Shown here piece by piece: positions 12,346-19,950 of a DNA stretch of 64,000 nucleotides (position 1 is the first letter of the stretch; the number at the start of each line of letters is the position of its first letter). The stretch lies in the NCBI GenBank assembly GCA_021772895.1, contig JAJFLC010000012.1, forward strand, positions 62,001 through 126,000, in the 5' to 3' direction. Source of the DNA: Mariprofundaceae bacterium (GTDB lineage: Bacteria > Pseudomonadota > Zetaproteobacteria > Mariprofundales > Mariprofundaceae). Under the pieces are notes generated by a model, which was not told where the DNA came from, searched no databases, and saw only the letters and a program-made list of their open reading frames with translations. The position numbers were made by a program, and so were the translations under genes.

Positions 12346-12486
12346 ATATTTTTCAATGGCGTAAAGCTGAACTTCGAATCACACTTAAAAAAGTGCGAAT
12401 GGCGATGGAAAAAAGACGCAAGCACGCTCAACAAAGAGCTGTGGAAATACCAAGGGAAGACAGTGCTTGCCAGTCTAGAGCTTTAA
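12343..12486 (+). mobile_element. Transposase C-terminal remnant, possibly IS1595 superfamily
   Basis: Frame DIFFNGVKLNFESHLKKCEWRWKKDASTLNKELWKYQGKTVLASLEL*; HLK(E/K)CE(W/F)R pattern typical of IS1595-like C-termini; no start or N-terminal part. Confidence 0.5.
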
Positions 12487-13377
12487 TAATGTTTCAGCTT
12501 GCTCTAAGACAAAATTTTTGAACGCTTCAGGAATTGCAGCAAAACGTTTTCCTTCTCGATGTACAATATGCCACTGGCGTTTGATAGGAAAACCTTCCAC
12601 TTCTAAAACAACCAATCGCTTGAGCGACAATTCCATTTCAATCGTATGCAGCGATACAATACCCAAACCAAGCTCTGCCATCACAGCCTGTTTAATCGCT
12701 TCAGAGCGATTCATTTCCATACCTGCAATTAGTTCAAGTCCATGTTGATTAAAAAAATGTTCTGTTGCCATCCGTGTGCCTGATGCAGGTTCACGTACAA
12801 TGAAAGGTTCATCCGCCAGGTCATGCAATAAAATCGGCTGCTGACACACCAAAGAATGCGTTGGTGCAGCAATCACCACCAAAGGGTTATCTATAAAAGG
12901 TATACCTTTAAGGTGATGTCCTGATGGGGGTTTTCCCATGATGGCCATGTCTGTTTGGTTGTTTTCCACAGCTTGTACTAAACCTAAACGATTGGTTACA
13001 TCTAAGGTGATTTCCACTTTAGGAAATTGTCGTTTAAAAGCCGCTATCAATTGTGGTGCAAAATAGTTAGCAGTTGATGCCATTGTCAGATGCAACTTAC
13101 CACGTTTCAAACCTCTAAGCTCTTCCATAACTTCAGACGCTTCTTCTAATTGTTGGCGAATATTTTGCGCGTAAAAGAGAAGTTCTTTTCCAGGCTCGGT
13201 TGGCACAATTTCTTTACCATCCCGTTCAAACAAAGGCAAACCCACTTGCTCCTCCAGCTTTTTTACCTGCATAGAAACAGCAGGCTGCGTCATAAACAAT
13301 GCCTTACTTGCCGCTGTATAACTTCGGTTTTCTATAATGGCTTCCAATATACTTAATTGTTTAAGCGAGATGTTCAT
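12475..13377 (-). CDS. cbbR: LysR-type transcriptional regulator CbbR
   Basis: LysR HTH; divergent from cbb operon. Confidence 0.88.
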   Translation of the reverse strand: MNISLKQLSILEAIIENRSYTAASKALFMTQPAVSMQVKKLEEQVGLPLFERDGKEIVPTEPGKELLFYAQNIRQQLEEASEVMEELRGLKRGKLHLTMASTANYFAPQLIAAFKRQFPKVEITLDVTNRLGLVQAVENNQTDMAIMGKPPSGHHLKGIPFIDNPLVVIAAPTHSLVCQQPILLHDLADEPFIVREPASGTRMATEHFFNQHGLELIAGMEMNRSEAIKQAVMAELGLGIVSLHTIEMELSLKRLVVLEVEGFPIKRQWHIVHREGKRFAAIPEAFKNFVLEQAETLLKL

Positions 13378-13542: not shown

Positions 13543-13989
13543 ATGCCAGAAGAAGTTTTTTTTCGTCCAAACGAAATAACCAGTACGCAAGGGGTATTAA
13601 CTGCCGATGTATACAATATTTGCCATACATTGTTATCACGCAGTCCCTTAGGTTCTGTTTTTGTGCCCATGCGGGATATGCAATACATGGCAGTATTGGA
13701 TCAGGAAGAAATTATTTTTGTGGATAGTTTGGTATACCAAATAGTTAACGGCAAAGGTGGACGGGTAATCATGACCTCCTGGCGGTTTCCCTCAAATAGA
13801 AGCCGCACCTCTCTTTTTGATCCGTTACCCTGCACATACATATATTACCACCCACAAGCCCAAACATCCCAATTGCGCCTGCAAAGTTCTTTTCGCCAAG
13901 CCATAAAACAACTTGACCAGCGTTACAGGGAAAATATTCTTCCATCACACCAAGCGACAATTTTACCATGGCCAACGCATGAAGATTAA
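13543..13989 (+). CDS. Conserved-looking hypothetical protein between cbbR and cbbL
   Basis: Intact 148-aa ORF in the divergent position to cbbR; GSVFVPMRDMQYMAVLDQEEIIFVDS core. Confidence 0.7.
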   Translation: MPEEVFFRPNEITSTQGVLTADVYNICHTLLSRSPLGSVFVPMRDMQYMAVLDQEEIIFVDSLVYQIVNGKGGRVIMTSWRFPSNRSRTSLFDPLPCTYIYYHPQAQTSQLRLQSSFRQAIKQLDQRYRENILPSHQATILPWPTHED

Positions 13990-14349: not shown

Positions 14350-15771
14350 ATGTCAGAAAAAGCTTATAACGCGGGCGTAAAAGAATACCGCGAAACGTAT
14401 TGGATGCCCAACTACACGCCAAAAGAAACTGATCTTTTAGCATGTTTTAAAATCACACCACAAGACGGTGTGCCTCGTGAAGAAGTCGCCGCTGCCGTAG
14501 CTGCTGAATCTTCAACGGGTACCTGGACAACTGTGTGGACAGATCTACTTACTGACCTTGATTACTATAAAGGCCGTGCTTATGCTATTGAAGATGTGCC
14601 TGGTGATGACACTTGTTTTTATGCTTTCATCGCATATCCAATTGACCTTTTTGAAGAAGGTTCCGTTGTAAACGTACTTACCTCTTTGGTTGGTAACGTA
14701 TTCGGCTTTAAAGCACTACGCGCTCTTCGTTTGGAAGACATTCGCTTCCCACTTGCATACGTCATGACTTGTAATGGTCCACCACAAGGTATCACACAAG
14801 AACGTGACATCCTTAATAAATATGGCCGTCCTCTATTGGGCTGTACCATTAAACCTAAATTAGGTCTATCTGCGAAAAACTACGGTCGTGCTTGCTATGA
14901 AGGTCTTCGCGGCGGTCTTGATTTCACAAAAGATGATGAAAACGTAAACTCACAACCATTCATGCGTTGGAGAGCTCGTTTTGACTTCGTACAAGAAGCT
15001 ATCGAAAAAGCAGAAGCTGAAACTGGTGAGCGTAAAGGTCACTACTTAAACGTAACTGCGCCAACTTTCGATGAAATGATGAAACGTGCAGAATATGCAA
15101 AAGAAATCGGCACACCAATCATCATGCATGACTACCTGACTGGTGGTTTGACTGCAAACACTGGCCTGGCGCAATGGTGTCAGGATAACGGCATGTTGCT
15201 ACACATTCACCGTGCTATGCATGCGGTTCTTGACCGTAACCCACACCACGGTATTCACTTCCGCGTATTGACTAAAGTACTTCGTTTGTCTGGTGGCGAT
15301 CACCTTCACTCAGGTACTGTGGTTGGTAAACTTGAAGGCGACCGTGACGCAACTTTGGGTTGGATTGATATTATGCGCGATTCTTTCATTAAAGAAGATC
15401 GCTCACGTGGTATTTTCTTCGATCAGGATTGGGGCGCTATGCCTGGCGTGATTCCTGTTGCCTCCGGTGGTATCCATGTATGGCACATGCCAGCATTGGT
15501 TAACATCTTCGGTGATGACTCTTGCTTACAATTCGGTGGCGGCACTTTGGGTCACCCATGGGGTAATGCAGCAGGTGCTGCAGCAAACCGTGTTGCTGTT
15601 GAGGCTTGTGTTGAAGCTCGTAATATGGGTCGTGAGCTTGAAAAAGAAGGTAAAGACATTCTTACTAAAGCTGCGGCACAGAGCCCTGAACTTAAAATCG
15701 CCATGGAAACCTGGAAAGAAATTAAGTTTGAATTTGACACTGTTGATAAAATCGACGTTGCTCATAAATAA
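14350..15771 (+). CDS. cbbL: RuBisCO large subunit, form IA
   Basis: [40 protein letters not shown] motifs. Confidence 0.99.
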
Positions 15772-15848: not shown

Positions 15849-16208
15849 ATGAGTGATATGCAAGATTACAACTCAAGCTTGGGCGATGCAGCCACAAGTC
15901 GTAAATTCGAAACTTTTTCATACCTTCCTGCATTGAGCATAGAATCAACTCGTGCTCAAATTCAATACATTGTAGATAAAGGCTGGAACCCAAGTATCGA
16001 ACATACTGAACCTAGCCATGCAACAGGTAACTATTGGTATATGTGGAAACTGCCAATGTTTGGTGAAACAAACGTTGATGCCATTTTGGCAGAACTTGAA
16101 GCATGCCACAAAGCACACCCTGAAAATCACGTGCGTCTATTGGGCTTAGATAACTTTGCTCAATGTGCAGGTGCTTCAATGGTTGTGTTCCGCGGCACTT
16201 CAGTATAA
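15849..16208 (+). CDS. cbbS: RuBisCO small subunit
   Basis: RuBisCO SSU sequence ([23 protein letters not shown]); start after ggagaaaaataat SD. Confidence 0.98.
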
Positions 16209-16223
16209 TAATAATCTGTAATT

Positions 16224-16262
16224 AAAACCCTTGCTTGCAGGTGTGGGGCAAGGGTTTTTTTT
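16224..16262 (+). terminator. Terminator/attenuator after cbbS
   Basis: aaaacccttgc ... gcaagggtttttttt stem and T-run. Confidence 0.75.
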
Positions 16263-16283: not shown

Positions 16284-16595
16284 ATGACGCGTCCAAACAA
16301 ATACGTAGGACTTAATAACGAAGTACATGGTGGCATGACCCCACTGGGAAAAGTCATCCGTGACGCCTGGGTCTTTTCAATCATTGAAGAAACAGAAACG
16401 TGTGAAGGCTGGAATTACGCAGGCATTGATAATTTACTAAGCAAGGTTAACCAAGAATGGGACAAATACGGCTGCCTGGTTAGTCATTTGCCCCCAGATT
16501 TATTAAAACGCCACCAGCGTATCCACGGCCATGCGCTTGAAAAAGCAAAAGCATCAGGCTGGTCTGGAGAAACAGAAACTGATGATGAAAATTAA
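16284..16595 (+). CDS. Uncharacterised 103-aa protein between cbbS and cbbQ
   Basis: Intact ORF in the cbb operon; no recognised fold. Confidence 0.8.
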   Translation: MTRPNKYVGLNNEVHGGMTPLGKVIRDAWVFSIIEETETCEGWNYAGIDNLLSKVNQEWDKYGCLVSHLPPDLLKRHQRIHGHALEKAKASGWSGETETDDEN

Positions 16596-16709: not shown

Positions 16710-17531
16710 ATGTCCATGATTGAAAATGTTGTAGATATTGAACAATATAAAGTTACTAAAGAACCATATTATGAAGCCGTTGGTGGCGAAATTGAATTGT
16801 ATACATCAGCATATGACGTACGTATGCCTATGATGATTAAAGGCCCAACAGGTTGCGGTAAGTCACGCTTTGTTGAACATATGGCCTGGAAGCTTGGTAA
16901 GCCCTTGATTACTGTGGCTTGTAATGAAGATATGACTGCATCAGATTTGGTTGGCCGCTTTCTTCTCGATAAAGATGGCACCAAATGGCAAGATGGACCG
17001 TTAACGACTGCAGCACGCATCGGTGCTATATGCTATCTGGATGAAATTGTAGAAGCCAGACAAGATACAACCGTGGTTATTCACCCATTAACGGATCATA
17101 GGCGCACGCTACCTTTGGATAAAAAAGGCGAACTGATTGCTGCCCACCCTGATTTCCAGCTGGTTATTTCATATAACCCTGGCTATCAAAGTTTGATGAA
17201 AGATCTAAAACAATCGACCAAACAACGCTTTGGTGGTTTGGATTTTGACTATCCCGAAGAAAAAATTGAAATCAATATTGTTGCAAAAGAATCTGGCGTG
17301 GATGAGAAAATTGCTGAAAAGCTTGTTCATATTGCCCAACGTGCCAGAAACTTAAAAGGCCATGGCCTGGATGAAGGTATTTCTACTCGTCTTTTGGTTT
17401 ATTCTGGGCAACTGATTGCACAAGGTGTATCTCCTTTAGCAGCATGTTCGATGACTATGGTTACACCCTTAACTGATGACCCAGACATGCGTGATACTTT
17501 GCACGCCGCTGTGGAAACATTTTTTGGCTAA
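16710..17531 (+). CDS. cbbQ: MoxR-type AAA+ ATPase CbbQ
   Basis: Walker A GPTGCGKSRF; Walker B CYLDEIVEAR; downstream of cbbLS. Confidence 0.96.
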   Translation: MSMIENVVDIEQYKVTKEPYYEAVGGEIELYTSAYDVRMPMMIKGPTGCGKSRFVEHMAWKLGKPLITVACNEDMTASDLVGRFLLDKDGTKWQDGPLTTAARIGAICYLDEIVEARQDTTVVIHPLTDHRRTLPLDKKGELIAAHPDFQLVISYNPGYQSLMKDLKQSTKQRFGGLDFDYPEEKIEINIVAKESGVDEKIAEKLVHIAQRARNLKGHGLDEGISTRLLVYSGQLIAQGVSPLAACSMTMVTPLTDDPDMRDTLHAAVETFFG

Positions 17532-17607: not shown

Positions 17608-19950
17608 ATGTCAATAAAACTCGAAGATTATGAGGTGTTCTTAGAAAGCTCTGCCCCAGAGGTCAAAGATGTACTGACCAGCAGTTATCAGGAAGCCTCT
17701 AGGGTCATGTCTCCCGCTGGATTACAAACCTACCTTGATGGGGCCAAGACATTGTCCAATTTAGGCCGTGGTTCTGGCATCGTTATTTCGTATATTCAGG
17801 AAGTTCCCATGGTTGCCAAAGAGTGTGGGGAAGATGTGGTGTCTGACTGTCTGACAGCGGCGATGAAACTATCATCAATGACATCGGGCGAAGTTGTCGC
17901 CTTACTTTTTAGCAGCATGCCAAGTGCAGCACGCAACCTCGGCGATGCAGAACTTTTCCGTGGTTATCTCACCATGGTACATCAACTGGCATCAACCGCA
18001 TCCCGTGGTGTGCGACCCATGCTCAATCATATCGATGAGTTGCTTTCCAAACTCACCTTGAGTGGCTTGCGCCGTTGGGCGAATTTTGGTGCGCAAGCAT
18101 ATAGACGCGATTATAAAAACCTGACTGCCTATTTCAATTTAGAGTCGGCTGATAGCCGCGCCATGTTACAAAAAGAGCGCAGAGGTATTTTATTTGTTAA
18201 ATCCCAACGCAAATTAAATTTCTATTTACGCGCCCTGTGGGGAAGAGATTTCTTTTTGCGCCCTACTGGTGCAGACTACTCAGACTTTCGCCCATATATA
18301 GAGCATCGGATTTTACACCTTCCCGATGCATTGGACGATTATGGAGAAGTGCCCGGCTTAGAAGTTTACCGAGCTACAGCAGCACATATGGCAGCACATA
18401 TGGCCTATTCTTCATCACCGATTTCAGCGGAACAATTGAGTCCTGCCCAGATGTTTTTCATCGGTTTGATTGAAGATGCCCGCATAGAATACAAAGCAAC
18501 CCAATCGTTCCCTGGCTTAAAAACACTATGGCAAAATATCATGGGCGTACCAAGTGAAGAAACCGCCGAGCACCCCACGATGCCCGTGCTGGAACACTTT
18601 GCTTTGATGCTGTTGAATCAAAATGTTCTCTCTGATGATGAACAGCTCAACCAATTAGCTGTAGCGTTTCATGACAATATTGCAGAGCGTCAGGATGATA
18701 ATCAGTTTTCCTGGCACTTGGGTCTGGACTTATTCAATCTGTTTGCTTCACGCAAAGCTGTACCGAGCTTACGTATTCTGGAGCGTATCAATATTCCTTA
18801 CCGTGATGACAATCGCTATGCATGGGAGTTTGAAGAATTCTCCTGGGATACTGAATTTGAATATATGGCAGCAAGCCAACAGCAAATACGTCGCCAAGTA
18901 AGTGCGATTGAAATGGCCAATGAGGTTGATTGCGAACTTGCAGGCGATGATGCGCAAGAAATTTGGACTTGTTCAACCAATATGCGCCCTTATGAAGATG
19001 ATTTAACCGATGGGCAGGCCAGCTTCAATGATATGTGGGGCAAAGAGCCTATTTCCGAGCCTTACCACTATCAGGAATGGGACTACCAAATCCAACTGCA
19101 TCGCCCTGATTGGGTCACCGTTTATGAACGAATGCAACCCAAAGGCATGCTTGAAGATATACAAGCCATTATCGATGAGTACCGCCCCGTAGCACACCGC
19201 ATCAAACAAATCATCGATTTGCTTACTCCTGAGGGCGTGCAACGTGTACGTAATATGGAAGATGGTGATGAAGTCGATATCAATGCCGCCATTGATGCCA
19301 TGATTGCTATTCGTATGGGTGAGCAACCCAATACACGCATTACCATGCGTAATGTCTTAAAAAACCGGGATTTATCTGTGGTAATTTTACTGGACTTGTC
19401 CGAATCTACAAACGAACCTATGAATGGCTCCGATAAAACGGTGTTACAACTCACCCGTGAGGCAGCCACATTGGTTTCTACGGCAATTGAAGGCATTGGT
19501 GACCCATTTGCGATTCACGGTTTTGCTTCAGATGGTCGGCATGATGTACAATATTATCGCTTCAAGGATTTCAACCAACACTTTGATGATGAAGTAAAAT
19601 CTCGTCTCGCTGGCATGAAGGGAGGCCTATCAACACGTATGGGTGCTGCTTTACGTCATGCAGGCCAGCACCTTCTAAAACAACAGGAAAAACGCAAGCT
19701 TATCCTGCTTGTAACCGATGGCGAACCCGCTGACATTGATGAACGTGATCCACAACATTTGCGTCATGATGCCAAAAAAGCTGTTGAAGAACTCTATAGC
19801 ACAGGTGTATCGACCTACTGTCTGACATTAGACCCTCTTGCCGATGCTTATGTGAAACGCATCTTTGGTGAGAATAACTTCACCATCATCGACAATGTTG
19901 ATCGCCTTCCAGAAAAGCTACCAACACTGTTTGCAAGCTTAACTTCATAA
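17608..19950 (+). CDS. cbbO: RuBisCO activase component CbbO with VWA domain
   Basis: C-terminal MIDAS VVILLDLSESTNE; partner of cbbQ. Confidence 0.95.
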   Translation: MSIKLEDYEVFLESSAPEVKDVLTSSYQEASRVMSPAGLQTYLDGAKTLSNLGRGSGIVISYIQEVPMVAKECGEDVVSDCLTAAMKLSSMTSGEVVALLFSSMPSAARNLGDAELFRGYLTMVHQLASTASRGVRPMLNHIDELLSKLTLSGLRRWANFGAQAYRRDYKNLTAYFNLESADSRAMLQKERRGILFVKSQRKLNFYLRALWGRDFFLRPTGADYSDFRPYIEHRILHLPDALDDYGEVPGLEVYRATAAHMAAHMAYSSSPISAEQLSPAQMFFIGLIEDARIEYKATQSFPGLKTLWQNIMGVPSEETAEHPTMPVLEHFALMLLNQNVLSDDEQLNQLAVAFHDNIAERQDDNQFSWHLGLDLFNLFASRKAVPSLRILERINIPYRDDNRYAWEFEEFSWDTEFEYMAASQQQIRRQVSAIEMANEVDCELAGDDAQEIWTCSTNMRPYEDDLTDGQASFNDMWGKEPISEPYHYQEWDYQIQLHRPDWVTVYERMQPKGMLEDIQAIIDEYRPVAHRIKQIIDLLTPEGVQRVRNMEDGDEVDINAAIDAMIAIRMGEQPNTRITMRNVLKNRDLSVVILLDLSESTNEPMNGSDKTVLQLTREAATLVSTAIEGIGDPFAIHGFASDGRHDVQYYRFKDFNQHFDDEVKSRLAGMKGGLSTRMGAALRHAGQHLLKQQEKRKLILLVTDGEPADIDERDPQHLRHDAKKAVEELYSTGVSTYCLTLDPLADAYVKRIFGENNFTIIDNVDRLPEKLPTLFASLTS

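Follow-up and report, generated by a model that had tools for sequence, protein, structure and literature searches.

A small protein family encoded beside green-type form I RuBisCO genes, proposed as an accessory factor

The window, by which we mean the whole 64,000-nucleotide stretch of Mariprofundaceae bacterium contig JAJFLC010000012.1 analysed here, carries the gene order cbbL-cbbS-HYP-cbbQ-cbbO, where HYP (alias N) is an ORF of 103 aa plus stop that begins with ATG, starts 75 bp past the cbbS stop and ends 114 bp ahead of cbbQ (Table 1). The preliminary description of this DNA had called it an intact ORF inside a RuBisCO/activase operon and could name no family for it; the first statement is confirmed by our reading of the ORF and by the Pfam assignments of its neighbours, and the second agrees with searches of Pfam and NCBIfam, neither of which gives a match for HYP. 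The cbbL gene of the window, which is of form I, is the sole RuBisCO large-chain gene found by a search of the host genome assembly (2.45 Mb, 98.5% complete).

Table 1. Features of the cbb locus in the window, with the evidence for each.
Feature	Coordinates	Strand	Basis
LysR-type regulator, cbbR-like, divergent from cbbL	12475..13377	-	Pfam PF00126, PF03466
P2, 148 aa, from a second unnamed family linked to cbb genes, lying between cbbL and the LysR gene	13543..13989	+	Homologue neighbourhoods, model
cbbL, form I RuBisCO large subunit	14350..15771	+	Pfam PF00016, PF02788 (RuBisCO_large); genome search
cbbS, RuBisCO small subunit	15849..16208	+	Pfam PF00101 (RuBisCO_small)
Terminator-like hairpin with T-run, possible attenuator, between cbbS and HYP	16223..16262	+	Fold -22.9 kcal/mol, z -2.8
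HYP (N), 103-aa accessory protein gene	16284..16595	+	ORF reading, homologues, dN/dS, model
cbbQ, MoxR-type AAA+ RuBisCO activase subunit	16710..17531	+	Pfam PF07728 (AAA_5), PF08406 (CbbQ_C)
cbbO, VWA-domain partner of CbbQ	17608..19950	+	Pfam PF00092 (VWA); tblastn matches to relatives' cbbO genes

One scan of GTDB genomes returned seven homologous loci with 68-75% identity to HYP, and the ORF is therefore more than a chance reading frame. The titles of these seven entries place them in the Chromatiales, the Thiotrichaceae, other Gammaproteobacteria or Proteobacteria, and one Zetaproteobacteria MAG. Six of the seven homologues adjoin cbb genes of the same operon and the remaining one lies in a decayed locus (L007:6001-6574), where the homologue is followed by only the C-terminal (3') end of cbbO and then by a fructose-bisphosphate aldolase-like gene, with cbbQ and most of cbbO missing. 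In locus L008 the start of the homologous gene falls within a run of N. Among pairs from the window's clade, the median dN/dS of HYP is 0.12 (NG86; 16 usable pairs, many with high dS), and by this estimate the gene is under purifying selection.

Alignments built from the first homologues were used to search for further relatives, which are present in 11 of 399 genomes of the phylum, in 34 of 200 genomes in the order of genome G222 and in 88 of 125 genomes in the family of genome G114; 369 genomes sampled across one proteobacterial class, that of G222, hold 112 (about 30%). A search of plasmids gave a single match, a 47% identical copy on a plasmid of Nitrobacter hamburgensis, and a search of a phage collection gave none. 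The 67 relatives that we compared with Pfam and NCBIfam have no credible match there; scattered matches of the ORF and these relatives, at E-values of about 0.001-1, were judged to be due to chance. Sequence matches in the PDB, mainly to designed helical proteins and GpsB, had weak E-values and were set aside as reflecting composition. By these searches the HYP family is widespread and unnamed, and is covered by neither a Pfam nor an NCBIfam model.

The AlphaFold2 model of HYP, computed from 66 sequences (mean pLDDT 81, pTM 0.68), consists of three main helices spanning residues 20-30, 45-61 and 71-90, followed by a disordered acidic C-terminal tail (96-103). Across 67 members Y7, G9, G17, T19, D27, F31, W43, L51, W59, G92 and W93 are invariant, and C40, G42, Y62, S67 and L69 nearly so. 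A Foldseek comparison of the model with the PDB, of moderate power given this pLDDT and pTM, found no match (best E 4.0), and none was found among viral models.

We considered where the relatives of HYP lie. Placement of 135 copies by tblastn put 34 between cbbS and cbbQ (S-N-Q), 32 directly downstream of cbbO (O-N), 2 between cbbQ and cbbO (Q-N-O), 12 otherwise near cbb genes, 3 near dab genes and 2 near cso genes, and left 50, about a third, unlinked; these counts are approximate, a few loci being the same contig entered twice, to judge by its length (L002/L210 and L007/L208). The S-N-Q arrangement is that of the window's lineage, the other main order being L-S-Q-O-N. In L224 and on the Nitrobacter hamburgensis plasmid HYP has dabB-dabA-PII close by, and in L114 it lies downstream of dabA. 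In L270 it diverges from cbbL-cbbS-csoS2, and in L280 it follows a carboxysome cluster. The DabA, PII, CsoS2, CsoSCA and BMC shell-protein neighbours were confirmed by Pfam. The preliminary description had held that homologues lying mostly outside cbb loci would speak against a RuBisCO factor; the homologue and neighbourhood search, run as a check, found the opposite, with most homologues in cbb, carboxysome or DAB loci. On a protein tree the S-N-Q copies fall near one group (3 label changes, as against 30 in shuffles), and a single S-N-Q clade is not rejected (p-AU 0.87) with a 100-column alignment that resolves few forks. Two copies occur in one operon (L207, in genome G729): that between cbbS and cbbQ is 72% identical and that after cbbO 48%.

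Clustering of the genes around the unlinked copies yielded no dominant partner, and the most telling neighbour was P2, the second unnamed family of the locus. In dozens of loci a P2 relative lies near cbbO or near a HYP homologue, with which it is often convergent. P2 likewise has no Pfam or NCBIfam model; its AlphaFold model is a confident alpha/beta structure (pLDDT 92) with weak similarities to PDB entries and no significant match among them.

The hairpin that precedes HYP in the window is a conserved feature of most of these operons. By a scan with a rule of our own, 28 of the 34 S-N-Q loci and 21 of the 28 O-N loci have this kind of element after cbbS (rate 0.12-0.16 in shuffles). Such an element was seen between HYP and cbbQ in 1 of 34 S-N-Q loci, between cbbL and cbbS in 1 of 34 (S-N-Q) and 0 of 28 (O-N), and between cbbO and HYP in 2 of 30. 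A general scan did not list the window's hairpin, probably because of its loop limit of 8. Since the element follows cbbS and rarely separates HYP from cbbQ or cbbO, operon-borne HYP belongs to the cbbQO, or activase, side of the operon. The natural reading would be that reduced read-through yields less HYP and CbbQO than RuBisCO.

The distribution of HYP across genomes follows that of form I RuBisCO, which we traced by its small subunit, CbbS. Carriers of HYP have CbbS in 8 of 9 cases among the 78 genomes of the window's order, in 33 of 34 among the 200 genomes in the order of G222, and in 26 of 28 among 80 genomes of the class of G222. All 8 of the CbbS genomes in the window's order carry HYP, and the contig of the ninth carrier (G270) stops just upstream of the homologue. 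The lone CbbS-less carrier in the order of G222 (G576) has a copy directly adjoining cbbO, and the two in the class set (G728 and G743) are 86-88% complete. The Fisher p-values for the window's order (4e-10) and the class set (2e-12) serve as a guide only, since the sampled genomes share ancestry and the values overstate independence. At the level of gene content, these counts show that the HYP family is all but restricted to form I RuBisCO genomes. Distances between HYP proteins also correlate with those between the CbbL proteins (rho 0.60, Mantel p 0.001), a correlation that could arise from shared descent alone. The form I operon is patchy in the window's order, where 70 of 78 genomes lack the form I small subunit, and it may have been acquired horizontally there.

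Twenty-six genomes in the order of G222 have CbbS without HYP, and we suspect that many of these carry a red-type form I enzyme with another activase. When form-I-type CbbO, defined as a match of at least 900 bits by a cut-off that we chose, is compared with HYP in that order, 33 genomes have both, 1 has HYP only (G517, where the copy is near a contig end), 3 have CbbO only and 163 have neither; in the class set, for strong CbbO, 20 have both, 8 HYP only and 3 CbbO only. Seven CbbS genomes of the class set are without HYP, and three of these have strong CbbO. These genomes, with the three CbbO-only genomes in the order of G222, indicate that HYP is not universally needed. Nor is HYP always accompanied by CbbQO: six of the eight HYP-only genomes of the class set (G738, G740, G765, G768, G770 and G772) have form I CbbS with no CbbO at E<=1e-80, and completeness is 97% or more in five of the six. 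Thus HYP tracks form I RuBisCO even where CbbO goes undetected, and at this threshold does not behave as a strict subunit of CbbQO.

We regard it as established that HYP is an accessory gene linked to form I RuBisCO, and from this we infer a biochemical role. With moderate confidence, we favour the reading that HYP is a small, soluble protein devoted to green-type form I RuBisCO, an accessory factor in its assembly or maintenance. The protein would be scarce relative to RuBisCO, would act on the holoenzyme or its subunits, and would work beside CbbQO where CbbQO exists. Its contact surface might be the nearly invariant N-terminal half (Y7, G9, G17, T19, D27, F31, C40, W43), presented by a helical hairpin (45-61 and 71-90), with the disordered acidic tail beyond it. 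The six genomes in which CbbO was not detected favour RuBisCO itself as the client. Assembly or maintenance is favoured because HYP lies on the presumed low-abundance side of the operon, persists in form I genomes where CbbO was not detected, and occurs in carboxysomal and non-carboxysomal operons alike, although assembly, activation and repair would look the same in sequence comparisons. Against this reading stand the copies, about a third, that lie away from cbb genes, the genomes with CbbS or strong CbbO that lack HYP, and the absence of any sequence or fold resemblance to known RuBisCO factors in the searches above. The preliminary description had proposed a RuBisCO factor working with CbbQO. 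Its RuBisCO part gains from the co-occurrence with form I and from the cbb, carboxysome and DAB loci, whereas the tie to CbbQO in particular is weakened by the six genomes in which CbbO was not detected and by the copies at carboxysome and DAB genes.

The main rival to a factor that acts on RuBisCO would make HYP part of the CbbQO activase, as an adaptor or regulatory subunit that binds CbbO (or CbbQ) and tunes its targeting or ATPase. This rival is backed by the junctions between the genes, HYP overlapping cbbO by an ATGA in eight O-N loci and lying between cbbQ and cbbO in two others, and by the order of G222, where form-I-type CbbO matches HYP better (33 both, 1 and 3) than CbbS alone does (33 both, 1 and 26). 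We nevertheless consider it unlikely, in view of the six genomes that retain HYP and CbbS without detectable CbbO and of the copies that adjoin carboxysome or DAB genes; in addition, the accessible part of the work on CbbQO of A. ferrooxidans mentions no third protein (PMC4660213). The unlinked copies, which share no single dominant neighbour, would also fit a housekeeping role in autotrophs that is unrelated to RuBisCO and merely co-regulated with cbb genes, an explanation rendered improbable by the several distinct positions that HYP occupies within cbb operons and by the fact that genomes lacking form I RuBisCO hardly ever carry it. A part in, or regulation of, wider CO2 acquisition through the carboxysome or the DAB inorganic carbon pump, and not through RuBisCO itself, is suggested by the three DAB-linked and two carboxysome-linked copies and is very doubtful, because only these 5 of 135 sampled copies are so labelled and cbbLS-cbbQO operons hold most of the linked ones.

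Few factors are known to serve the biogenesis and repair of RuBisCO in chemoautotrophs. HYP, which occurs in about 30% of the 369 class genomes and lacks a family model, is a candidate for a missing RuBisCO factor, and could be relevant when these enzymes are produced in other hosts. More tentatively, it may be an unrecognised and widespread assembly or maintenance factor for the green form I enzymes of chemoautotrophic proteobacteria, carboxysomal and free alike, with P2 as a possible partner.

Small assembly factors encoded with RuBisCO genes, namely RbcX, Raf1 and acRAF, are thought to act sub-stoichiometrically. HYP resembles them in being a small protein encoded with RuBisCO genes; neither HYP nor the 67 relatives compared match the Pfam families of these factors, and the PDB search with the HYP model returned no fold match to their solved structures. 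The operon of Nitrosomonas europaea described by Wei et al. in 2004 reportedly has the order cbbLSQON. Its last gene, cbbN, may belong to the HYP family; it follows cbbO, as in the O-N arrangement of many HYP loci. A search of open literature for cbbN and cbbLSQON gave no relevant text, and one paper using 'cbbQON' concerns cytochrome oxidase and is unrelated.

The activases encoded beside HYP offer a second comparison. CbbQ-CbbO hetero-oligomers of A. ferrooxidans are described as activases (PMC4660213). HYP shares with CbbQ and CbbO its half of the operon, 3' of the hairpin after cbbS; unlike them it has no AAA+ or VWA domain by Pfam, and it also occurs in genomes without detected CbbO. In the literature covered, the only description of a gene at the window's HYP position is that of a 'conserved hypothetical protein' encoded between rbcS and cbbQ. 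It comes from a report on Ca. Thiobarba, Ca. Thioglobus autotrophicus and mussel symbionts that gives gene order only and in which the form I operon clusters with those of sulphur-oxidising Gammaproteobacteria (PMC6908604). That gene occupies the same position as HYP in the same kind of form I operon, and the two are likely to be members of one family.
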